Source: Megasphaera sp. (GTDB taxonomy: Bacteria; Bacillota; Negativicutes; Veillonellales; Megasphaeraceae). From it: DNA of 64,000 nt. Position numbers and translations under genes: made by a program. Position 1 is the stretch's first letter; every line of letters begins with the position of its first letter. Below are positions 50,848 to 61,922 of the stretch, one piece after another. The notes below the pieces were generated by a model. It worked only from the letters and a program-made list of their open reading frames with translations. It was not told where the DNA came from and did not search any database. The DNA is taken from the NCBI GenBank assembly GCA_022486585.1, contig JAKVKI010000002.1, positions 1 to 64,000 on the forward strand, given 5' to 3'.

Positions 50848-53250
50848 ATGGTTAAGGACAGAAACAAAGCATTTGTATTGTGGTTTGACGAATTACGCCG
50901 TGCTGATGTGGCGCTTGTAGGCGGCAAATCATCTTCCTTAGGTGAATTGACATCGCATACGGATGTGCCCGTACCGTATGGGTTTGCTACGACGGCTGAA
51001 GGCTACCGTCATTTCATGCATCAGACCGGGATGGATGTCAAAATCAAAGAACTCCTGAAGGGCTTGACCGATGTAGAAGATCCTGTTCAGCTCCGCAATG
51101 TAACAGCAGCTATTCGTAAAGCTATTTGTGATGCAGAAATGCCGAAAGATTTAGCTGATGCGATTCGCCAGAGTTATATCGAACTGGGGAAAAAAGTGGG
51201 CGAAGCCGATCCGTTTGTAGCTGTTCGTTCTAGCGCTACAGCAGAAGACCTTCCTGATGCCAGCTTTGCTGGCCAGCAAGATACGTATTTGAATGTTCAG
51301 GGTCCGGATATGGTTATTCAGAAGGTTAAAGAATGCTATGCTTCGACCTTTACTGACAGAGCTACGTATTATCGTACGAAAAAGGGATTCGATCATTTAC
51401 AGGTAGCACTCAGTGCTGCTGTACAGATGATGGTATTCTCTAAAGCCGCCGGCGTTATGTTTACTGTTGATTTGGTGACTGGCGATGATTCGACTATTAC
51501 TATTGAAGGGGCATGGGGCCTCGGGGAATATGTCGTTCAAGGGACTGTTACACCGGATAATTTTAAAGTACAGAAGGCCGATTTATCTATTATCTCCAAG
51601 ATGATCAATACCAAACCGGTCAAACTGGTTCGCAAACCAGGCGGCGATTGTGAAGAACAGCTGGTACCTATTGACGAACAGAAGGAACAGGTTATTTCTG
51701 ACGAACAGGTAAAAGAACTGGCTTCGTATGCTAAAGCGATTGAAAAACATTACGGTTGCTATATGGATATGGAATGGGGCGTTGATGAACGGACGGATAA
51801 GATTTGGCTGCTCCAAGCTCGTCCGGAAACAGTTTGGTCGAGAAAAAATAAGGAAAAGAAAGAAGGAGGAACTAAGGATATGTCACAGGAACCGATGACG
51901 ACGGACCGCAAAATTGTTGTAAAAGGTTTGCCGGCAAGCCCTGGTCATGCAGCAGGTAAAGCACATATTATTTTAGACCCCAGCAGAATTGAAGAATTCA
52001 ATGATGGTGAAATCCTGGTTACAACCATGACGGCACCGGACTGGGTACCGGCTATGAAGAAAGCAAAAGCCATTGTTACAGATGCTGGCGGGATGACCTG
52101 CCATGCTTCTATTGTCAGCCGTGAATTGGGTATTCCTTGTATTGTCGGCACGAAGAGCCGCAGCACAGAAGCGACGACGACGATTACGGATGGCATGAAC
52201 ATCACTGTGGACGCAACGAATGGTATCGTCTATGAAGGTATTGTAGAAGATATTGTAAAACCGGCAGAAACGACAGGCGGAGCTACCGTTGTAGCAGCTG
52301 AAGCGGCACCGATTACGGGTACGAAGATTTACATGAATCTGGGCAATCCTGATTTGGCTGAAAAATATGGCAAACTCCCTTGTGACGGTATTGGCCTTAT
52401 GCGTGAAGAATTTATTTGGACGACGTTCATTCACGAACATCCATTATATCTCATCGAAATCGGTCATCCTGAACGCGTAGTAGATCAGCTGGCTGACGGT
52501 ATGCGCAAGGTTTGCCAGGCATTGGCTCCTCGTCCGGTAACGTTGCGGTTCAGCGATTTCAAATCTAGTGAATACCGTAATCTTAAAGGCGGCGATAAAT
52601 ATGAACCGCAGGAAAGCAGCGCACTCTTAGGCTGGCGTGGTGCTTCACGGTATTATGATCCGAAATACATGGAAGCCTTCAAGCTGGAAATTAAAGCGGT
52701 TCAAAAAGTTCGTGAAGAATATGGCTTTAAAAACCTCAATGTTATGATCCCCTTCTGCCGCCGCGTCGATGAAATGCAGAAGATCGTAGGGCTCATGGCT
52801 GCTGAAGGCTTGCACCGCGGGCCGGACTTCAAAGTATGGCTCATGGCAGAAATCCCGTCCAATATTATTTTGGCCGATCAGTTCAATCAGTTTGTCGATG
52901 GCTATTCTATCGGTTCCAACGATCTGACAATGCTCATCATGGGTTGTGACCGTGATAATGATACAGTTGCACCGCTGTTCGATGAACGGAATCTGGCTGT
53001 AAAGAGAGCTATCCGTCATTTGATTTCTGTTGCACATAAAGAAGGTAAGACCGTCTCTATTTGTGGCCAGGCACCGAGTGTATATCCTGACTTTACTGAA
53101 TTCTTGGTCAAGAGCGGTATCGATTCCGTATCTGTCAACCCGGATGCTGTCGTATCGACACGCAAGAATGTAGCGCAAATCGAACAGCGAATCCTGTTAG
53201 ATTCGCTGACAGGTAAAGGCCGGTCTGATACAGAAGATTATACGTGGTAA
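50848..53250 (+). CDS. ppsA: Phosphoenolpyruvate synthase
   Basis: An 800-residue enzyme making PEP from pyruvate and ATP (AMP and phosphate released). The N-terminal nucleotide-binding domain (about 1-335) starts with WFDELRRADVALVGGKSSSLGEL. The swivelling phosphohistidine domain has Thr417 and His419 in GGMTCHAS; Thr417 is the position phosphorylated by PpsR in related enzymes. The C-terminal PEP/pyruvate barrel ends with Cys739 in SICGQAPS and SVNPDAV. AGGAGG precedes the ATG. The regulator genes ccpN and ppsR follow, so the enzyme, its likely transcriptional control and its post-translational control are linked. Confidence 0.96.
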   Translation: MVKDRNKAFVLWFDELRRADVALVGGKSSSLGELTSHTDVPVPYGFATTAEGYRHFMHQTGMDVKIKELLKGLTDVEDPVQLRNVTAAIRKAICDAEMPKDLADAIRQSYIELGKKVGEADPFVAVRSSATAEDLPDASFAGQQDTYLNVQGPDMVIQKVKECYASTFTDRATYYRTKKGFDHLQVALSAAVQMMVFSKAAGVMFTVDLVTGDDSTITIEGAWGLGEYVVQGTVTPDNFKVQKADLSIISKMINTKPVKLVRKPGGDCEEQLVPIDEQKEQVISDEQVKELASYAKAIEKHYGCYMDMEWGVDERTDKIWLLQARPETVWSRKNKEKKEGGTKDMSQEPMTTDRKIVVKGLPASPGHAAGKAHIILDPSRIEEFNDGEILVTTMTAPDWVPAMKKAKAIVTDAGGMTCHASIVSRELGIPCIVGTKSRSTEATTTITDGMNITVDATNGIVYEGIVEDIVKPAETTGGATVVAAEAAPITGTKIYMNLGNPDLAEKYGKLPCDGIGLMREEFIWTTFIHEHPLYLIEIGHPERVVDQLADGMRKVCQALAPRPVTLRFSDFKSSEYRNLKGGDKYEPQESSALLGWRGASRYYDPKYMEAFKLEIKAVQKVREEYGFKNLNVMIPFCRRVDEMQKIVGLMAAEGLHRGPDFKVWLMAEIPSNIILADQFNQFVDGYSIGSNDLTMLIMGCDRDNDTVAPLFDERNLAVKRAIRHLISVAHKEGKTVSICGQAPSVYPDFTEFLVKSGIDSVSVNPDAVVSTRKNVAQIEQRILLDSLTGKGRSDTEDYTW

Positions 53251-53274
53251 CTACACAGAATGTAATGTGAGAGG

Positions 53275-53318
53275 GGCAGCCAAAAAGAATGAAGGTTTCC
53301 TTTTGGCTGCCTTTCCTC
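53275..53318 (+). terminator. Hairpin terminator after ppsA
   Basis: GGCAGCCAAAAG (53275-53286) pairs with CTTTTGGCTGCC (53300-53311) and is followed by TTTCCTC. The T tail is weak, so partial read-through into ccpN is possible. Confidence 0.65.
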
Positions 53319-53341
53319 ATGTTTGCCTGTCTGCCATGGTA

Positions 53342-53354
53342 GTGTATACAAAGA
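53342..53354. promoter_or_regulatory. GTGTATACAAAGA motif upstream of ccpN
   Basis: Shares GYGTATACAAA with the element before ppsA (50803-50813), and TAG precedes it in both places. It lies about 40 nt before the ccpN start. Possible autoregulatory binding site. Confidence 0.4.
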
Positions 53355-53390
53355 CTGCGGCAGGGAAGCACCTGGAGGTGAAAAAGAGAC

Positions 53391-54032
53391 ATGCTATCAG
53401 AACGACAGGAAACGATTTTACAAATCGTCAAAGAAAATAGCCCCATTACGGGGCAGCATATCGCTAACAGGCTGCATGTGACCCGCGCAGCGCTGCGGTC
53501 AGATTTGGCTATTCTGACGATGTTGGAACTTATCGATGCACGGCCTAAGTTAGGGTATTTTTTTACAGGCCATAAAGAGAAAGACTTATTGTCACGGGCT
53601 ATTACGGATATCAGCATAGAAACGTGTTTGTCACAGCCCGTCATTGTCGGTGAGCATACGAGTGCCTATGATGCGATTATTGCCATGTTCACAGAAGATG
53701 TCGGGACTGTTTTTGTCGGGACCAATAATATTATGGCTGGCGTTGTATCCCGCAAGGATTTGCTAAAGACCGCGATGGGCCATAATGACCTGCGGGCATT
53801 GCCTGTACGAATGGTCATGACGCCGGTGAGCAAGCTGATTTACGTTCGTCCTGATGAAAAAGCGCTTGTAGCAGCACAACGTATGATAGAATATGAAGTG
53901 GATTGTCTGCCGGTGGTCAATGTCCTGGATACAGAGGAAGAAGACCGCAAAGATCTGCAGATCGTCGGTAGGATTTCAAAGACTAATATTACCCGTTTAT
54001 TTGTAGAATGTGGACTAGGAAGGAGAACATAA
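53391..54032 (+). CDS. ccpN: CcpN-like regulator (HTH plus CBS pair)
   Basis: A 213-residue cytoplasmic regulator. The N-terminal winged helix (about 1-60) with ENSPITGQHIANRLHVTRAALRSDLAIL, here cited as the core ITGQHIANRLHVTRAALR, is followed by two CBS motifs (about 80-140 and 143-205) that usually bind adenine nucleotides. In Bacillus, CcpN represses gluconeogenic genes, and ccpN is coupled to the yqfL/ppsR gene, exactly as here (1 nt between). CTGGAGGTG precedes the ATG at a slightly long distance. Targets are inferred to include ppsA because of the shared upstream motif. Confidence 0.9.
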   Translation: MLSERQETILQIVKENSPITGQHIANRLHVTRAALRSDLAILTMLELIDARPKLGYFFTGHKEKDLLSRAITDISIETCLSQPVIVGEHTSAYDAIIAMFTEDVGTVFVGTNNIMAGVVSRKDLLKTAMGHNDLRALPVRMVMTPVSKLIYVRPDEKALVAAQRMIEYEVDCLPVVNVLDTEEEDRKDLQIVGRISKTNITRLFVECGLGRRT

Positions 54033-54033
54033 C

Positions 54034-54855
54034 GTGCCATTACCTCTTATTTATGCCTGCTCCGATTCATTGGGTGAAACGGCTGAACGCGTGGCTCGCG
54101 CCGCTGCCAGCCAATATGACAAGGAAGAATTCAATATTATCCGAGTCCCGTACATCCGATCGGAACAACAGGTAGCAGACCTTGTGAAAAAAGCAAAAGA
54201 AAATAACGCAATGATTTGTTACACCATCATTTCGCCACTGTTACGCCGGAAATTAAAGGAATTGACAGCAGATGCAAATGTGGTAGTTGTAGATATTATC
54301 GGGCCTATGCTGGAAGGTGTCGGCAAGTTAACTTCGACGGATCCAACGATGAAAGCCGGTATGATCCATCAGCTTGATGAAGAATATTTCAAACGAGTAG
54401 AAGCCATTGAGTTCGCTGTCAAATTTGATGATGGCAAAAATCCGATTGGTTTCCTTCAAGCGGATATTGTCATTGTCGGTGTATCACGGACATCTAAGAC
54501 ACCGTTGTCGATGTATTTGGCTCATAAACGGATCAAAGCGGCCAATCTGCCATTGGTGCCGGAGGTATCGCTGCCACCAGAATTATTCCAGGTGCCGGCC
54601 CGTAAAATCGTCGGACTTATTATTGATCCTTTTAAATTGAATTTCATTCGATCTGAACGGCTTCGCAGTATGGGGCTGGATTCGAATGCAAGCTATGCCA
54701 ATATTGAACGTATCAATGAAGAACTGGCTTATGCCCGCGGCGTTATGCGCCGGCTTCATTGTCCGATTATCGATGTATCTGCTAAAGCGATTGAAGAAAC
54801 TGCCAATTTAGTGTTGGAAATCGTTAAGCGGAATAAGGAACTTTACAACGAATAA
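54034..54855 (+). CDS. ppsR: PEP synthase regulatory protein (kinase/pyrophosphorylase, DUF299)
   Basis: A 273-residue bifunctional enzyme that uses ADP to phosphorylate, and phosphate to dephosphorylate, the Thr next to the catalytic His of PEP synthase or PPDK. The start is GTG at 54034 after GAAGGAG, one base after the ccpN stop. The P-loop-like GVSRTSKTPLSMYLA (about 149-163) and N-terminal YACSDSLGETAERVARAAASQY, cited as SDSLGETAE, are diagnostic. The presumed target Thr417 is present in the PpsA encoded just upstream. Confidence 0.95.
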   Translation: MPLPLIYACSDSLGETAERVARAAASQYDKEEFNIIRVPYIRSEQQVADLVKKAKENNAMICYTIISPLLRRKLKELTADANVVVVDIIGPMLEGVGKLTSTDPTMKAGMIHQLDEEYFKRVEAIEFAVKFDDGKNPIGFLQADIVIVGVSRTSKTPLSMYLAHKRIKAANLPLVPEVSLPPELFQVPARKIVGLIIDPFKLNFIRSERLRSMGLDSNASYANIERINEELAYARGVMRRLHCPIIDVSAKAIEETANLVLEIVKRNKELYNE

Positions 54856-54862
54856 ATGGCAT

Positions 54863-54893
54863 AAAAAAAGACGCCATTCGGCGTCTTTTTTTA
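54863..54893. terminator. Terminator after ppsR
   Basis: AAAAAAAGACGCC (54863-54875) and GGCGTCTTTTTTT (54880-54892) form a perfect 13-bp stem with a 4-nt loop. Only 39 nt separate it from the next start codon, and no promoter is obvious there. Confidence 0.9.
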
Positions 54894-54932
54894 TAGTACC
54901 GGCCCTTGCCATCATGATTGAGGTGATACTGT

Positions 54933-57900
54933 ATGGAAGATGAAAAAAAAGCAGTTTTTACGACGTTAAATGAAGTTTTTAGAGATCCGCGTTTTCTCAA
55001 TATGGCAGGCGTCCGTGAAGAGGAAGTACCGGGATTTATTCGTGAAAATCGCATTCGTATCTTAGCTTCTCGTCTGGCGGCTGAACGCAGTCCTGGCGGA
55101 CGGTTCCAGACACAACGGGTCCTGCAACTAGCCAAAGCCTATATCACCTGTCTTCATGATGAGCCTAAGGAAGGCTGGCTGCTGTATTGTTATCAGTATG
55201 TACTCGAGCAGATTTTTCCCAGCAGAACGGCACACCGTGAAGGCTATGAAAAAGAGGAACAAAAAGGATACGCTCTGGGACGGATGGTACTTATGCAGTT
55301 GTTGCGAGGCTTGTTCCGCTTTGAAAACAAGGTATTACCGTTTGATCCGACACGATATATGGCACTGCTCAGTGAAAAGGATGCAATGACACAAGGATGC
55401 GCCAGAGAGTATCTTCATATGCGCCGCCTTATTATGACTCAGTATGTATATGAATTCATGCGTATTGGTATTGATATTACGCCATTTAATACATTGGGCC
55501 ATATCAGCGGTGTCCATTATGTAGCTATGTATGCAGCGAGACAACTGTATAAGGCAGGGGTCCCTGTCGATTTGGCACTGATTTCCGGGGCGGCAGCCTG
55601 TCATGATATTGGCAAGTACGGTTGCAAAAAGAATGAGGAGAAACGAGTCCCGTATTTACATTATTACTATACAGGTATATGTTGTCAGCGTGTTGGTTTG
55701 TCTGCTATAGGCCATATTGCAGCCAATCATTCTGTATGGGATCTGGAACTGGAAAATCTGTCTGTCGAATCGTTATTGCTCATTTACGCTGATTTTCGTG
55801 TGAAGAGCAGTCGCAATGAAAAAGGTGCTGAAGTCGTCCATTTCTATTCGCTGGCCCAGGCGTTTGATGTGATTTTGGGTAAATTGGATAATGTAGATGA
55901 GAAGAAAAAGCAACGCTATCAAAAAGTCTATGCTAAATTAGCTGATTTTGAAGAATTTATGAAGGAACTAGGTGTCGTAACAGAACTGCCGTCTGATTTT
56001 GCGGCGATGCCGCACAGAGCACCGTTTTATGACCACAAGGAAAAAGTCCTTTTAGAAGGCGAAGATGTCGTTGATGAACTGAAATATGCTGCTATTGATC
56101 ATAATATCCGGCTCATGAGCATTTTCCGTGATGAAAGCGATTTTGGGAATCTGATTGAAGCGGCACGCAGTGAACGGCGCTGGAAAGATGTCCGAACGTA
56201 TATCTGCATTTTTGAAGAATATTCTACGTATATGACAGAACATCAAAAACTCATGACACTGAAATTCCTCTATGAGTTGTTATCTCATAAAGAAGGGGAT
56301 ATCCGTATTCAGGCGGCGGCGTTGATGGGGCATATTGTAGCTGATTTTAATGAACGATATACGAAAGAATTGCCTCAAGGCGCTTCACTGCCCAATAAAG
56401 CTGTTACTAGTCAGACCTTGTTTGCCCGGTATACAGCGATGATCATCCATCCGGATTTACGCTATACAGAACAGCATAAAATATGGATTGGGTACTGTCT
56501 GAGCTTTTTTGTCAGAGCGGCGTTGGAAGGCTGTTCTCCGACAGCAAGGCAGCAGGCTATGGAAAATCTGCGCCAGTACTATACCGTTACGGATTATCAG
56601 ACCGAACGTTGTATTATTTTGCTAAAAACGTTAATGGATATGAAACGGGACTACATGGATGATGCGTTTATGGATACGATTGGCTTGTTCATCCAGGCGG
56701 CAGCTGAATCACAAGCGCTGCCGGTTCGCGTAGCTGCATTGCGGTGTGCCCGGCATTTAATGGAAGGCTATGGAGATGCGGCGTATTACCATGACCTATT
56801 GTCCCTTATGGATTTACCGGAAGATAGGCAGTCCTTTGCCGACAGGGAAGGTAATTTATTTCTTGATGATTTGAAAATGGGCACGCATTGGGTCGTCAAA
56901 GCGGCGAATATTGAGCTCATGCTCCATTACATGGATGATGATAGTGATGCTGGCAGTATTATGCATCTGAGCATGCATTTGACCAATCTCCTCAAGGTCA
57001 GTGAGACTATCTTCGTCCGCCAGGCCGCAGGGATGAGTTTGCTGACAATTGCTGAGCATATGAGTTATTCACAACGTAATGAGCTGGCTGTTGAATTGTT
57101 TAATGGCTTAGAAATAGGGGATCCGCAGATTTCAAAATATGTGCCTGATTTTCTGGGGCGTATGATATTGAAACTGCCAGTTCAGGAATTCGATGAATTC
57201 ATTACGACGATGGAATCACAGCTCATGACGGTGAATACAGCGCTGGCATCCTCTATGGTCCATACAGTAGGCGTTATATTGGAGAACTTTGATGAGTTCG
57301 CTAATGAATTCAGCATGAATGATGGTGAAAATGAAATACGCCAGAGACGCTTGTTGTACATCATGATCAAAGCTTACGCACATTATGATCAGGAATTGAG
57401 TCGTGATGCGTTCCGTGATATGGGCCGTTTTATTTTCCATAGTCCGGTCATGCCACTGGTACGCAAAGACTTCCTGTTCATTCATTGCTATAAAAAATTA
57501 CTGGTCCTTCTCGATGAAAATGCTGGCGGAGTCCTCGATTTTTATAGTAATGCAGCTGTATTGAATCATATTTATCGCTATATTGGCCGTCATCAGTTCG
57601 AGATTGGTGCTTTTGCGTTTCCTGCAGGGAAAAAAGCTTGTTTTTATCCGGGGACATTTGATCCGTTTAGCTTAGGACATAAAGCAGTGGCCTGTAAGAT
57701 TCGTGACTTGGGGTTTGACGTATATTTGGCATTGGATGAGTTTTCTTGGTCGAAACATACGCAACCGCGGCTGATGCGTCGCAAGATCATGAACATGTCT
57801 GTTGCTGATGAAGAAGATTTATATCCGTTTCCAGATGATATTCCCGTCAATATTGCCAATCCATCTGATGTGAAACGGTTGCAGGATATTTTCGAGGGTA

Positions 57901-59783
57901 AGGAATTATATATTGCTGTTGGTACAGATGTCATTGCTCATGCGTCAGCGTATGCAGAGACACCGACGGCTCATTCCATCCATACGATGAATCATATTGC
58001 TTTTGCCAGAGAAACGAGCGAGGCAGACCGGGAAGGCAGTGAAGAAAGCAGTTATAATATTCAGGGAAAGGTTATCCGACTGACGCTCGATAAGTTTTAT
58101 GAAGATATTAGTTCTACAAAAATCAGAGAAAATATTGATTTAAATCGTGATATTTCTAATCTGATCGATGCAGTGGCTCAAAATTTTATTTATGATAATA
58201 ATCTCTATTTGCGTGAGCCTGCGTATAAGCATGTTCTGGAAGCACGGGAAATCGGTATCGGTGCGTTCAAGCCCCGGGGAGCTGAAAGTTTATGGCCCAT
58301 TTGCGGGAAATTGTGGGACACGGGGTATAATACAGATATGCTGGACCGCTATATTGAACGGGAAGGCGTATGGACACTGTATGTTGATGATGCGGCACAG
58401 CATAAGGAAATGATTGCCTATGCGGCAGTTCACCGTGTTGGTACACGGCAGCTGCTCAGTGAATTTGATGATGCCCAGGTGGCGGCGCATATCCGCGAAG
58501 CTGCCGGCGGCAGTGTCGCCTGTATTGGGTTCTTGTATGCTGATGATGATGCCAGTATTGCCAATGTCAGCCAGATTGTTATTACAGAAGTGCTGACGGA
58601 GCTCATTGGCCGTGATTTTGCCTATGCTGTGTATAAGCCTGTTGATGAAGCGGGATATGATAAGAAGCTCATCCGGGCTTTGCAGATGCAGGGCTTCGTC
58701 AACATTGCGCCGCGAGGTGCGCAGCATCCTCTCTATGCAGTGAATATGCAGTCTCCAGTCGTTATTTTCCGCGATGTAGAAACGACCATCAAGAATCCCT
58801 TTAATAAGAATCGCCGTGTCCAGCAGGCACTGGATACAGCTCATAATAATTTACTGTCTGTCATGAATTATATTTATCCGGGTAAATTATTGTTGTCGTT
58901 TAACATGAGTGCAGTCCATAATAAAATCATTAATAAAGTGGCTGAAATCAACGGTGTATCTACTGTTGAAGATAAGAAAAAACGGCGTGGACCGTATATG
59001 TCCGTGCCCTTTGGCAAGGCGCTGAGTGATGTGTTAGTACCGAATACGGTTACGAAGACGCTTCATATAGACAAGTATTTCAATCGGGCCGTTAAAGGAT
59101 TCACTATTGCTGAATCACATCATTACTCGTCTGTTGAAAATCAAGTCAAAACTATCAAATCATTTAACCGGCCAGTTATACTGATTGATGATCTGCTTCA
59201 TAAGGGCTATCGGATGCGTATGCTCACACCGTATTTGAAGAAGAATGATGTCGATATTAAAGAAGTATTAGTCGGGGTCATGACTGGCAAGGCGATGGAT
59301 ATGATGGCAGCTAAAGAGATTAAGGCGGAAAGTGCCTATTTCCTGCCAACGTTGGAGGTATGGCTTAACGAACGGGATTGTTATCCTTGTATCGGCGGTG
59401 ATAGTATGGATAATGCCAATAATTACAGCGGCTACGATGCCAATCCATCCATCAATCTGGTCCTGCCGTATGTTAAACCGGCTTTTATTGGTAATGGCCG
59501 GGAAGAAACTGATTTTGTCTATTCACTGACGTGTTTGCAGAATGCGGCACTCATCATGGAAACGCTGCAAGATGTATATCAGGCTACGTATGAACGGCGC
59601 CTTACATTGAAACGTCTTGGTGAAGTTATTACGTATCCGCGTATTCCTGATATTGATGTAGGTGTCAAATTCGATGAAAATATGGATCCTGTACGGTTCA
59701 TTAAAAACGATATTGAACGACTCGTTCGTTTGCGCTGGGGTGAAATGGACCATGTACCGTCTTCGGGCCACAGCCACACATAA
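54933..59783 (+). CDS. 1616-residue multidomain protein: HD, helical repeats, nucleotidylyltransferase, PRTase-like
   Basis: GAGGTGAT precedes the ATG and the frame is intact. Domains seen: (1) about 180-350, HD-type metal phosphohydrolase with His195, His224-Asp225 in CHDIGK, His261, His266, Asp287; (2) about 380-890, mainly helical, HEAT-like, no catalytic motif; (3) about 900-1095, nucleotidylyltransferase of the NadD/CoaD superfamily with FYPGTFDPFSLGHKA (904-918) and ISSTKIREN (1059-1067); (4) about 1140-1260, possibly GNAT-like, ending in ALQMQGFVNI; (5) about 1300-1500, phosphoribosyltransferase-like with VILIDDLLHKG (1415-1425), and a CxxC at 1483-1486. No membrane segment or signal peptide, so it is cytoplasmic. 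Two redox-enzyme-like genes follow within 18 nt and 16 nt. Function is unknown; nucleotide-cofactor synthesis, salvage or sensing is the natural hypothesis. Domains 1 and 3 are firm; 2, 4 and 5 are tentative. Confidence 0.85.
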   Translation: MEDEKKAVFTTLNEVFRDPRFLNMAGVREEEVPGFIRENRIRILASRLAAERSPGGRFQTQRVLQLAKAYITCLHDEPKEGWLLYCYQYVLEQIFPSRTAHREGYEKEEQKGYALGRMVLMQLLRGLFRFENKVLPFDPTRYMALLSEKDAMTQGCAREYLHMRRLIMTQYVYEFMRIGIDITPFNTLGHISGVHYVAMYAARQLYKAGVPVDLALISGAAACHDIGKYGCKKNEEKRVPYLHYYYTGICCQRVGLSAIGHIAANHSVWDLELENLSVESLLLIYADFRVKSSRNEKGAEVVHFYSLAQAFDVILGKLDNVDEKKKQRYQKVYAKLADFEEFMKELGVVTELPSDFAAMPHRAPFYDHKEKVLLEGEDVVDELKYAAIDHNIRLMSIFRDESDFGNLIEAARSERRWKDVRTYICIFEEYSTYMTEHQKLMTLKFLYELLSHKEGDIRIQAAALMGHIVADFNERYTKELPQGASLPNKAVTSQTLFARYTAMIIHPDLRYTEQHKIWIGYCLSFFVRAALEGCSPTARQQAMENLRQYYTVTDYQTERCIILLKTLMDMKRDYMDDAFMDTIGLFIQAAAESQALPVRVAALRCARHLMEGYGDAAYYHDLLSLMDLPEDRQSFADREGNLFLDDLKMGTHWVVKAANIELMLHYMDDDSDAGSIMHLSMHLTNLLKVSETIFVRQAAGMSLLTIAEHMSYSQRNELAVELFNGLEIGDPQISKYVPDFLGRMILKLPVQEFDEFITTMESQLMTVNTALASSMVHTVGVILENFDEFANEFSMNDGENEIRQRRLLYIMIKAYAHYDQELSRDAFRDMGRFIFHSPVMPLVRKDFLFIHCYKKLLVLLDENAGGVLDFYSNAAVLNHIYRYIGRHQFEIGAFAFPAGKKACFYPGTFDPFSLGHKAVACKIRDLGFDVYLALDEFSWSKHTQPRLMRRKIMNMSVADEEDLYPFPDDIPVNIANPSDVKRLQDIFEGKELYIAVGTDVIAHASAYAETPTAHSIHTMNHIAFARETSEADREGSEESSYNIQGKVIRLTLDKFYEDISSTKIRENIDLNRDISNLIDAVAQNFIYDNNLYLREPAYKHVLEAREIGIGAFKPRGAESLWPICGKLWDTGYNTDMLDRYIEREGVWTLYVDDAAQHKEMIAYAAVHRVGTRQLLSEFDDAQVAAHIREAAGGSVACIGFLYADDDASIANVSQIVITEVLTELIGRDFAYAVYKPVDEAGYDKKLIRALQMQGFVNIAPRGAQHPLYAVNMQSPVVIFRDVETTIKNPFNKNRRVQQALDTAHNNLLSVMNYIYPGKLLLSFNMSAVHNKIINKVAEINGVSTVEDKKKRRGPYMSVPFGKALSDVLVPNTVTKTLHIDKYFNRAVKGFTIAESHHYSSVENQVKTIKSFNRPVILIDDLLHKGYRMRMLTPYLKKNDVDIKEVLVGVMTGKAMDMMAAKEIKAESAYFLPTLEVWLNERDCYPCIGGDSMDNANNYSGYDANPSINLVLPYVKPAFIGNGREETDFVYSLTCLQNAALIMETLQDVYQATYERRLTLKRLGEVITYPRIPDIDVGVKFDENMDPVRFIKNDIERLVRLRWGEMDHVPSSGHSHT

Positions 59784-59801
59784 GTCAGGGAGGAGAAGGG
59801 C

Positions 59802-60776
59802 ATGGAAACATATTATGTAAGCAATCTGCCCGGGGAAATCGGGGCAACGGCGATGGCGCTGAAGCATCATGGCCTGTCGTGTCCAGTGCGAGTTCACATT
59901 TTGGCACTAGGTGATGTCGGCATGACGATGCTCATAGGGCTGCGTCTTCTTGGCGGTGATGTCATTCGTTCCATCGGTATCTGTGATATCAATGAAAAGA
60001 ATGTACAGCGTCTGGAAATGGAAATCAATCAGATTCGATATCCTTTTGCCGGGGTGTATGCACCGTTACCACCTGTGGAATCTATTGGGGAAGAACAGCT
60101 TTTTGACTGCGATGTATTTATTTTCTGTGCCAGTAAAGGTGTGCCGCCAGTTGGTGTGGTCGGTGATGTGCGGATGGCTCAGCTAGAGGCGAACAGAGGA
60201 CTTATCGGTCATTTTGCAGGGTTGGCCCGGAAGGCAGCGTATAGCGGGTTGGTCTGTATTGTGTCTGATCCGGTGGACCCGTTATGTGCGGCCTTCCTCG
60301 ATGCGTCAGGGTGCAGTCCGGCACAGATTCAAGGTTATGGATTAGGTGTCATGAATGCCAGAGCCTGTTACTATGCGGAACGGCATGAAAATATGAGGCA
60401 CTATCTCACAGAAGGGCGGGCTTTTGGCCCGCATGGCCAGGATCTGGTTATTGCTGATAGTGTGACCAAGTATGATGACAGTATATCCCGCTTGTTGACA
60501 GAGTACGTCGTACAGGCCAATGTGGCAATCCGGAATACCGGTTATAAGCCTTATATTGCACCAGCCCTGTCATCGGCAGCTTTATCTATTCTGCTGACGT
60601 TACGGGGGCAGTGGCACTATGGATCGGTCTATTTGGGAGCACCTGGCTGTGGAGCATACTTCGGCGTTAAAAATCATATGGGTCCTGACGGTATCATATA
60701 TGAAGACATACCAATGTGCCGGAGCTTGTACAGCCGATTGGTGACAGCATATACGAATTTATGCAGTCTTCGCTAG
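59802..60776 (+). CDS. Diverged lactate/malate-dehydrogenase-like protein
   Basis: A 324-residue Rossmann protein. The NAD loop is ILALGDVGMTM (about 33-43), followed by GICDINEKNVQRLEME with the acidic residue that binds the ribose. VSDPVDPL aligns with the LDH block VSNPVDVL, and FGPHGQDLVIADS aligns with GEHGDS, keeping the catalytic His. The Asp that normally pairs with this His appears absent: the aligned segment reads GVMNARACYY instead of LDSARFRY. The substrate loop is also altered (SKGVPPVGVVG). So the fold is clear but lactate or malate may not be the substrate. GGGAGGAG precedes the ATG, 18 nt after the giant gene. Confidence 0.8.
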   Translation: METYYVSNLPGEIGATAMALKHHGLSCPVRVHILALGDVGMTMLIGLRLLGGDVIRSIGICDINEKNVQRLEMEINQIRYPFAGVYAPLPPVESIGEEQLFDCDVFIFCASKGVPPVGVVGDVRMAQLEANRGLIGHFAGLARKAAYSGLVCIVSDPVDPLCAAFLDASGCSPAQIQGYGLGVMNARACYYAERHENMRHYLTEGRAFGPHGQDLVIADSVTKYDDSISRLLTEYVVQANVAIRNTGYKPYIAPALSSAALSILLTLRGQWHYGSVYLGAPGCGAYFGVKNHMGPDGIIYEDIPMCRSLYSRLVTAYTNLCSLR

Positions 60777-60792: not shown

Positions 60793-61878
60793 ATGTTAGC
60801 AGTAGTACGAATCGGTTGGAGTGAGTCTGATCAATCACGTCGCATGGATGCTGTGCTGGCGTATGCCCTGGAAGGGATAGCATATGAATCATGCAGTACG
60901 ATGCATGGGCTGCAGTCGTTTTTGGACAGGAATGGAGCCCATGAAAAAGTGCTTCTGTTTGCCGTGGCGCTGCCATCATGGGGACTGACTTCGTCGTATG
61001 CCCGGTTTTTACACTTTTTGATGGCACAGGAGCATTGTTTAGAAGGTTGTTGGGGCGGTGTTATCGTTGACGGACCTGGTGAAATTTTTACTAAAAAGTT
61101 AGGCCGCGAAGTTATTGCACTGGCTAATCGGGCAGGGTGTGCCTTCCCTGGTAAACCCCTTGTAGAAGCGACGGGTTCACTGTATAATTTTCAAACCCAG
61201 GCGATGATACAAGGCGTTCCTCGTTTTGAAGCGTATGAAAAGAGTGCCCGTCGTCTAGTATTGAAATTGACAGATGGTCATCTGCAAAAAAAAAGCTTTT
61301 CCCAACGAAGGGAAAAGCCGTATATAGTGGCATTGCATGCATCGAGCCGCAAAACATCAAATACATTATTATTATGGGAAATGGTGCGTCAAGCATTACA
61401 AGATCGGGCAACAGTAACGGAAATATCCCTGCGTAATGGCTCCGTTGTCGATTGCCGCGGTTGTAGTTATGAAGCCTGCCTTCATTTTGGTGAAAAAGGG
61501 GATTGCTTCTATGGCGGCGTTATGGTGGATGAAGTTTATCCGGCTGTGCGCCAGTGTGATGCGCTAGTGCTTATTTGCCCTAATTATAATGATGCTGTCA
61601 GTGCAAATATTATGGCATTCATCAATCGTCTGACGGCACTGTTCCGCAAAGACGGGGAGGCCTTTGCACATAAGCGAATCTATGCCTTAGTCGTATCGGG
61701 ATATAGTGGCGGAGATATTGTAGCTGAACAGATCCTGGATGCTATGAATTGCAATAAAAATTTTATTCTGCCGGGACAGTTTGTTCTGATGGAAACAGCA
61801 AATGATCCTAAGAGTATCCTGCGCTGTTCCCGTATTCAAGAACGGGCAGCAGCTTTTGCTGATCATATAGTACGATAA
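60793..61878 (+). CDS. NAD(P)H/FMN-reductase-like flavoprotein with extra N-terminal domain
   Basis: A 361-residue protein. The C-terminal about 185 residues are a flavodoxin-like NADPH-dependent FMN reductase or iron-sulfur flavoprotein: ALHASSRKTSNT (FMN phosphate loop, about 180-191), then DCRGCSYEACLHFGEKGDC with four cysteines (about 218-236), and ICPNYNDAVSANIMAFINR. The first about 170 residues form a separate domain that I do not recognise; it contains ALPSWGLTSSYARFLHFLM and a GVIVDGPGEIFTKKLGRE stretch, and may be a degenerate second flavodoxin fold. Third gene of the cluster, 16 nt after the dehydrogenase-like gene, ending at a strong terminator. Confidence 0.8.
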   Translation: MLAVVRIGWSESDQSRRMDAVLAYALEGIAYESCSTMHGLQSFLDRNGAHEKVLLFAVALPSWGLTSSYARFLHFLMAQEHCLEGCWGGVIVDGPGEIFTKKLGREVIALANRAGCAFPGKPLVEATGSLYNFQTQAMIQGVPRFEAYEKSARRLVLKLTDGHLQKKSFSQRREKPYIVALHASSRKTSNTLLLWEMVRQALQDRATVTEISLRNGSVVDCRGCSYEACLHFGEKGDCFYGGVMVDEVYPAVRQCDALVLICPNYNDAVSANIMAFINRLTALFRKDGEAFAHKRIYALVVSGYSGGDIVAEQILDAMNCNKNFILPGQFVLMETANDPKSILRCSRIQERAAAFADHIVR

Positions 61879-61886
61879 AAGATAAT

Positions 61887-61922
61887 AAAAAAAGATGATT
61901 CAGAAGAATCATCTTTTTTTAT
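61887..61922. terminator. Bidirectional terminator before rpmB
   Basis: AAAAAAAGATGATT (61887-61900) and AATCATCTTTTTTT (61907-61920) form a perfect 14-bp stem. It ends the operon above and the convergent rpmB. Confidence 0.9.

Follow-up and report, generated by a model that had tools for sequence, protein, structure and literature searches.

The NadD-YqeK fusion of mycoplasmas (JCVISYN3A_0380; PRK07152; PMC9426524) joins a NadD-family nucleotidylyltransferase (NTase) and an HD phosphohydrolase in one chain of ∼361 residues, with NadD first and HD second, and serves a housekeeping role. Its HD part hydrolyses NaAD and the mis-made analogues of NaAD, a precedent for NadD and an HD domain acting in one chain as maker and proofreader (PMC9426524). 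Here, we describe a giant protein encoded in a 64,000-nucleotide stretch of Megasphaera sp. DNA (the window) that likewise combines a NadD-family NTase with an HD phosphohydrolase domain; both proteins keep the ISSTxIR motif and the HD ligands. However, the giant protein carries its HD domain at the N terminus, where it is not recognised as YqeK, and places a 500-residue solenoid between the two domains. It also has a GNAT part and a PRTase-like part that the fusion lacks, and it comes with two partner genes. The other described families that invite comparison are NadD itself (TIGR00482), the type I PRTases (PF00156, HPRT-like) and, for the two partners, the L-lactate/malate dehydrogenases (PF00056; TIGR01771) and the FMN_red / iron-sulfur flavoprotein-like oxidoreductases (PF03358).

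The giant gene is the first of a three-gene unit that lies between two terminators. The features of the unit are as follows:

54860..54895, no strand assigned: near-symmetrical intrinsic terminator AAAAAAAGACGCCATTCGGCGTCTTTTTTT separating the PpsR-like gene on the upstream side from the giant gene (terminator scan), flanked by an A run and a T run
54920..54926, + strand: likely ribosome-binding site GAGGTGA of the giant gene, 6 bases before the ATG (read directly)
54933..59783, + strand: giant protein P0001, 1616 aa (frame read and full-length homologues)
55410..55967, + strand: HD phosphohydrolase domain, residues ∼160-345 (Pfam HD, invariant ligands, helical model)
56040..57602, + strand: HEAT/ARM-type alpha-solenoid, residues ∼370-890 (AlphaFold2 model and PDB matches)
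57627..58226, + strand: NadD-like nucleotidylyltransferase, residues ∼899-1098, with GTFDPFSLGH, SWSK, GTD and ISSTKIR (profiles, Foldseek, tree)
58227..58763, + strand: GNAT fold, residues ∼1099-1277 (model and fold comparison)
58770..59750, + strand: probable type I PRTase-like domain, residues ∼1280-1606 (Pfam PF00156, hhalign)
59175..59213, + strand: PRPP-loop-like motif VILIDDLLHKGYR, residues 1415-1427 (column counts)
59787..59799, + strand: likely ribosome-binding site AGGGAGGAGAAGG of the second gene (read directly)
59802..60776, + strand: LDH/MDH-like protein P0002, 324 aa (profiles, alignment, adjacency in 26 loci)
60793..61878, + strand: two-part flavodoxin/FMN_red-like protein P0003, 361 aa (Pfam FMN_red, alignment, co-occurrence)
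61885..61922, no strand assigned: intrinsic-terminator-like hairpin of 17 pairs with A and T runs, 3' of the third gene (terminator scan, listed on the - strand)

A first-pass annotation had described one intact frame joining HD, nucleotidylyltransferase and PRTase-like modules to a scaffold of helical repeats. Read directly, positions 54933-59783 (+) indeed form 1616 uninterrupted codons, and the quoted motifs were found exactly in place: H224-D225 (within ACHDIGK), the NTase pair 907-GTFDPFSLGH-916 and 1059-ISSTKIREN-1067, and the DD loop 1415-VILIDDLLHKG-1425. The same domain order recurs in 33 other full-length sequences from scattered Bacillota at identities down to about 33%, and the motif residues are near-invariant by column counts across 34 homologues; we therefore consider that these motifs did not arise by chance. 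Compared with its nearest homologue (85% identical), the giant gene has a Nei-Gojobori dN/dS of ∼0.04 (dN 0.098, dS 2.37) and is under strong purifying selection. The HD, nucleotidylyltransferase and helical-repeat parts of the earlier reading thus stand, the PRTase part less firmly, and two elements are new: a GNAT fold at residues ∼1100-1277 and a unit that runs past position 59783 with two more genes.

The N-terminal 895 residues gave a confident all-helical AlphaFold2 model with a mean pLDDT of 79. Within its HD part, the pLDDT is mostly 62-88 except in the loop at 230-250. The H...HD...D metal ligands of the HD superfamily are present as H190, H224, D225 and D287, and the full set of putative ligands (H190, H224, D225, H243, H261, H266 and D287) is invariant in 34/34 homologues. 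We infer the ligand assignment from sequence, and the pattern is that of a working metal-dependent phosphohydrolase. Pfam HD matched 31/33 members of the giant family (best E 4.4e-6), with the window's own protein scoring below the gathering score. A closer identity with YqeK found no support beyond the superfamily level (hhalign P 0.007): in 10 carriers, the YqeK profile (TIGR00488) reported no giant protein at E 0.001 and returned the true YqeK proteins at 1e-38 to 1e-50. Following the HD part, the solenoid is modelled as a superhelix of helix pairs of the HEAT/ARM type, and its best PDB matches include the PP2A scaffold, SF3B1 and karyopherins. Because the top Z of 14.0 can be reached by unrelated helical repeats, these matches support the fold class and no particular relative.

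The NTase domain was matched by Pfam (E 5.7e-8), by a PDB profile search (E 3.7e-9) and by Foldseek against S. aureus NadD 2h29 (E 9.1e-7). The first-pass annotation had linked it to NadD-type enzymes, and NadD proved to be the right relative: hhalign against the nadD products of the same genomes gave P 2.7e-13, versus 0.01 or worse for unrelated profiles, and in a tree the giants' domains form a single clade next to NadD, with CoaD outside. On these comparisons, we place the domain as a deep sister group of NadD. It has the NadD fold and the ATP-site motifs GxFDPxxxGH and ISSTxIR, with G907, F909, H916, S1060, S1061 and R1065 invariant and T1062 kept in 33/34 homologues; ISSTxIR, GxD, SWSK and the Tyr at the stacking position are invariant or nearly so. 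The NadD pocket, however, is altered. In the alignment, the first His of HxGH is Ser/Thr, PPHK is SWSK, and the stacking Trp is replaced by a Tyr that is invariant among the giants; the Lys of PPHK alone survives, as Lys941. The giants score 35-59 bits on TIGR00482, far below its equivalog cut-off of 112.45 bits, whereas the true nadD of the carrier genomes score 169-188 bits. With these substitutions in HxGH (first His) and PPHK (PPH), NaMN is not necessarily the substrate of the giant protein. The retained Lys941 and the aromatic residue at the nicotinate-stacking position would favour a mononucleotide-like substrate, which makes a pyridine-type mononucleotide our leading guess.

Residues ∼1100-1277, which the earlier note had left open, adopt a GNAT fold in the model (pLDDT mostly 68-92), aligning with human NAA60 over 157 residues (Z 12.9, rmsd 3.7) and with RimI (Z 12.7). 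This is the least conserved part of the protein, at 19-24% identity in most of the distant homologues. A motif scan found the acetyl-CoA loop R/QxxGxG/A absent from the window protein and 28/34 homologues, so acetyl transfer by the GNAT-like domain is doubtful. The segment that follows (residues 1280-1606) probably has a PRTase-like fold, judging by profile comparison. Its profile match to type I PRTases, weak yet consistent, spans the PRPP loop and the beta-alpha unit after it: PF00156 matches 23/32 members (best E 2.8e-4), and hhalign against an HPRT-type profile gave P 3.7e-5, versus 0.03-0.4 for unrelated profiles. We gave no weight to an hhalign match with the segment before it, as 16 residues are common to both. 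Unlike the type I PRTases, the segment has a long family-specific C-terminal part, and its loop reads DDxxxKGxR in place of DDxxx(T/S)Gx(T/S); the DD and the G are kept, the DD in 33/34 homologues, and the last position, usually Thr/Ser, is Arg in 33/34. The structure model has low pLDDT here because the prediction was built from 13 close sequences, and the absence of PRTases from the top Foldseek and VIA matches is, given so poor a model, not evidence against the fold. The PRTase claim of the first-pass annotation therefore gains some profile support, and is weakened by the low pLDDT and by a phosphate loop without Thr/Ser. Its companion argument, that PRTase and NadD catalyse successive steps of NAD synthesis, we judged weak: nicotinate PRTase (PncB) is a type II PRTase, the loop here is of type I, and nadD and yqeK are already present in these genomes.

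Profile scans found separate, normal nadD and yqeK genes in 10/10 tested carriers. The giant protein is thus not the housekeeping NAD enzyme, and we rejected an identity as housekeeping NadD on this ground; the module does something additional. A side observation concerns genus g319 (G615:C13 12587-13702; G706:C5 50990-52105; L092, L093), in which a single frame of 401-408 aa encodes housekeeping nadD and yqeK as a fusion; the genomes with this fusion also carry the giant protein.

The earlier note had considered a self-contained enzyme, which is contradicted by the two partner genes that always accompany the giant protein. Homologues of the giant protein, P0002 and P0003 are adjacent and in the same order in 26 loci, in which the other neighbours differ: near relatives in Megasphaera have PEP synthase, CcpN and PpsR next to the trio, and other loci have Pta, DHFR, serine dehydratase, VanY, M18 peptidase or CheD. 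In three genomes (G615, G706 and G707), the second and third genes lie together on another contig than the giant gene and are still present. The giant protein and a P0003-like protein are carried by the same 8/398 sampled genomes, which are not fully independent owing to shared descent but span several families, with the unlinked cases counting separately. A P0003 profile search over these genomes gave E < 1e-127 in the 8 giant-bearing genomes and 5e-15 for the next best of the 398, which rules out a chance association of the three genes. Upstream of the unit, window positions 50848-54855 hold PEP synthase, a CcpN-like regulator and a PpsR-type kinase/pyrophosphorylase, an ordinary gluconeogenesis cluster. 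We rejected a link of the trio to these genes, which form its context only in near Megasphaera relatives and are separated from it by a terminator. No riboswitch was found in the window, and a scan of 7 carrier loci for riboswitches returned only a tRNA and a cobalamin riboswitch on the opposite strand.

Both partners resemble oxidoreductases with altered active sites. P0002 has the Rossmann GxVG of the L-lactate/malate dehydrogenases (Ldh_1_N 27.2 bits against a cut-off of 27), with GDVG and D62 invariant. In the residue numbering of LDH, P0002 keeps the equivalents of Arg106, Arg169 and His193. It differs from these dehydrogenases in that Asp166, the partner of His193 in the catalytic pair, is Met in all 24 aligned members, Asn138 is Asp throughout the family (NPVD to DPVD), and its scores fall far below the equivalog cut-offs. 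With these two changes, P0002 would be a dehydrogenase of another kind or else a binding protein. The LDH-like protein of distant carriers (L053 to L056, L079, L081 and L175) has ∼95 extra N-terminal residues that the Megasphaera copies do not have. A plasmid of Streptomyces sp. NBC_01708 (L189:8628-11823) encodes, in a small operon, an APH-type phosphotransferase, an LDH-like protein and a 371-aa protein without a Pfam match; this LDH-like protein has DVRMAxLxAN in common with P0002, yet retains the catalytic Asp.

The C-terminal half of P0003 is an FMN_red domain (residues 178-336, E 6.7e-21, 74.9 bits against a cut-off of 24), sharing with its described relatives the SNT loop and four Cys near the flavin site. 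The four Cys form an invariant CxGCx4Cx8C, and PNxND is found in nearly all aligned copies (PNYND in P0003), whereas the usual motif of FMN_red-type proteins is PxYW. P0003 also differs from them in its extra N-terminal half, which is conserved and has no Pfam match. We infer from these residues a candidate site for a flavin plus an Fe-S cluster or redox-active Cys.

A search for the domain order of the giant protein across Negativicutes and Clostridia was positive. Full-length homologues of the same size (59-85% identity) occur in Megasphaera, Anaeroglobus, Colibacter, Acidaminococcus and Eubacterium pyruvativorans. The protein is present in 18/300 sampled genomes of the class, a sample in which some Megasphaera lack the module, and in 8/398 of the phylum, with 33-42% identical copies in three further families. 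Acetoanaerobium noterae has a homologue of 32% identity. The E. pyruvativorans copy (recorded as Eubacteriaceae) branches with the Negativicutes copies in a midpoint-rooted tree with long branches. This placement, together with the module-less Megasphaera and the few carriers in the phylum, points to horizontal transfer, in either direction, and loss. Phages and viral contigs yielded no homologue. We rejected a phage or plasmid origin on this basis, the sole plasmid match being a 2.63-Mb Acetoanaerobium record: NZ_CP154629.1 (L175) from A. noterae, labelled plasmid pTPELB2, which carries the full trio and whose size suggests a chromosome or megareplicon. A frame break near residue 1494 interrupts the Anaeroglobus geminatus copy (L007:12458; G235:C7 about 21977), through either a sequencing error or decay of the gene.

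Each domain of the giant protein belongs to a known superfamily, and the combination was not found in the searched literature: no published description of the architecture or of the three-gene unit emerged from the open-licence papers. The trio suggests an undescribed nucleotide-cofactor pathway. Our tentative but preferred explanation is a specialised module in which the giant protein is the central enzyme, making and hydrolysing a nucleotide conjugate, with two oxidoreductase-type partners. The NadD-like domain would load a phosphorylated substrate, for which the pyridine-type mononucleotide is the leading guess, with a nucleotidyl group, AMP from ATP being the likeliest. The HD domain, like the YqeK part of NadD-YqeK fusions, would hydrolyse phosphoester or pyrophosphate bonds, either in this product or in one made wrongly. 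Binding or supply of the substrate may fall to the PRTase-like and GNAT-like domains. The HEAT solenoid would hold the parts and probably dock the partners, and these two, the LDH-like protein with its Rossmann half and the flavodoxin-like protein, would perform a redox step on the product or make use of one. Against this explanation stand the weak similarity of the HD part to YqeK and a domain order unlike that of the NadD-YqeK fusion. Moreover, with a PRTase loop lacking Thr/Ser, a GNAT loop lacking the acetyl-CoA motif and an LDH-like protein lacking its Asp, three parts may be only binding or regulatory. We consider it very doubtful, though conceivable, that the trio makes, uses and recycles a dinucleotide-type redox cofactor of its own that exists alongside NAD in the cell. 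Its assembly would then fall to the PRTase-like and NadD-like domains and its breakdown to the HD domain, with the LDH-like and flavodoxin-like proteins as its dedicated oxidoreductases.

The loss of canonical catalytic residues from three parts also fits a sensor or regulator, in which enzyme-like domains bind NAD(P), ATP or a precursor and a HEAT scaffold relays their state to the LDH-like and flavodoxin-like partners. The large scaffold and the redundancy with housekeeping nadD and yqeK speak for such a device, but the NTase and HD catalytic residues are invariant beyond what binding alone would need, and a Pfam scan found no DNA-binding or kinase output domain; we regard it as somewhat unlikely. 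An auxiliary or salvage NAD enzyme, that is, a second NaMN/NMN adenylyltransferase with built-in hydrolytic proofreading akin to an enlarged NadD-YqeK, would explain why NadD is the nearest relative of the NTase domain and has a known fusion as its model. It is nevertheless quite unlikely, given canonical nadD and yqeK in all 10 carriers, scores of 35-59 bits far under the NadD equivalog cut-off (112), changed pocket residues (PPH, HxGH and Trp) and two partners that NAD salvage leaves unexplained. A sporadic, partly horizontal distribution and a compact, self-standing cassette could instead reflect synthesis of a small nucleotide-linked natural product (a signal, a siderophore-like compound or an antimetabolite) with the redox partners as tailoring enzymes, but only three genes are conserved, with no transporter, resistance gene or carrier protein among them, and we hold this to be decidedly improbable. 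The same patchiness, and a large multidomain protein with HD and NTase domains, might recall an anti-phage defence or conflict module that degrades or modifies nucleotides. That role is highly improbable, since none of the three proteins matched a PADLOC family at E 1, the PHROG comparison was negative (we rejected a defence system on these two results), no phage or viral-contig homologue was found, and there are no defence genes among the typed flanking genes.

In genomes already equipped with this activity class of NAD synthesis, the giant protein duplicates it and couples it with two redox-type partners whose active sites are altered. If the sensor reading holds, the module would represent a new way to read the pyridine-nucleotide state. 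Were a new nucleotide cofactor or signal its product, the module would extend the cofactor metabolism of gut and rumen anaerobes such as Megasphaera and Acidaminococcus by one pathway.
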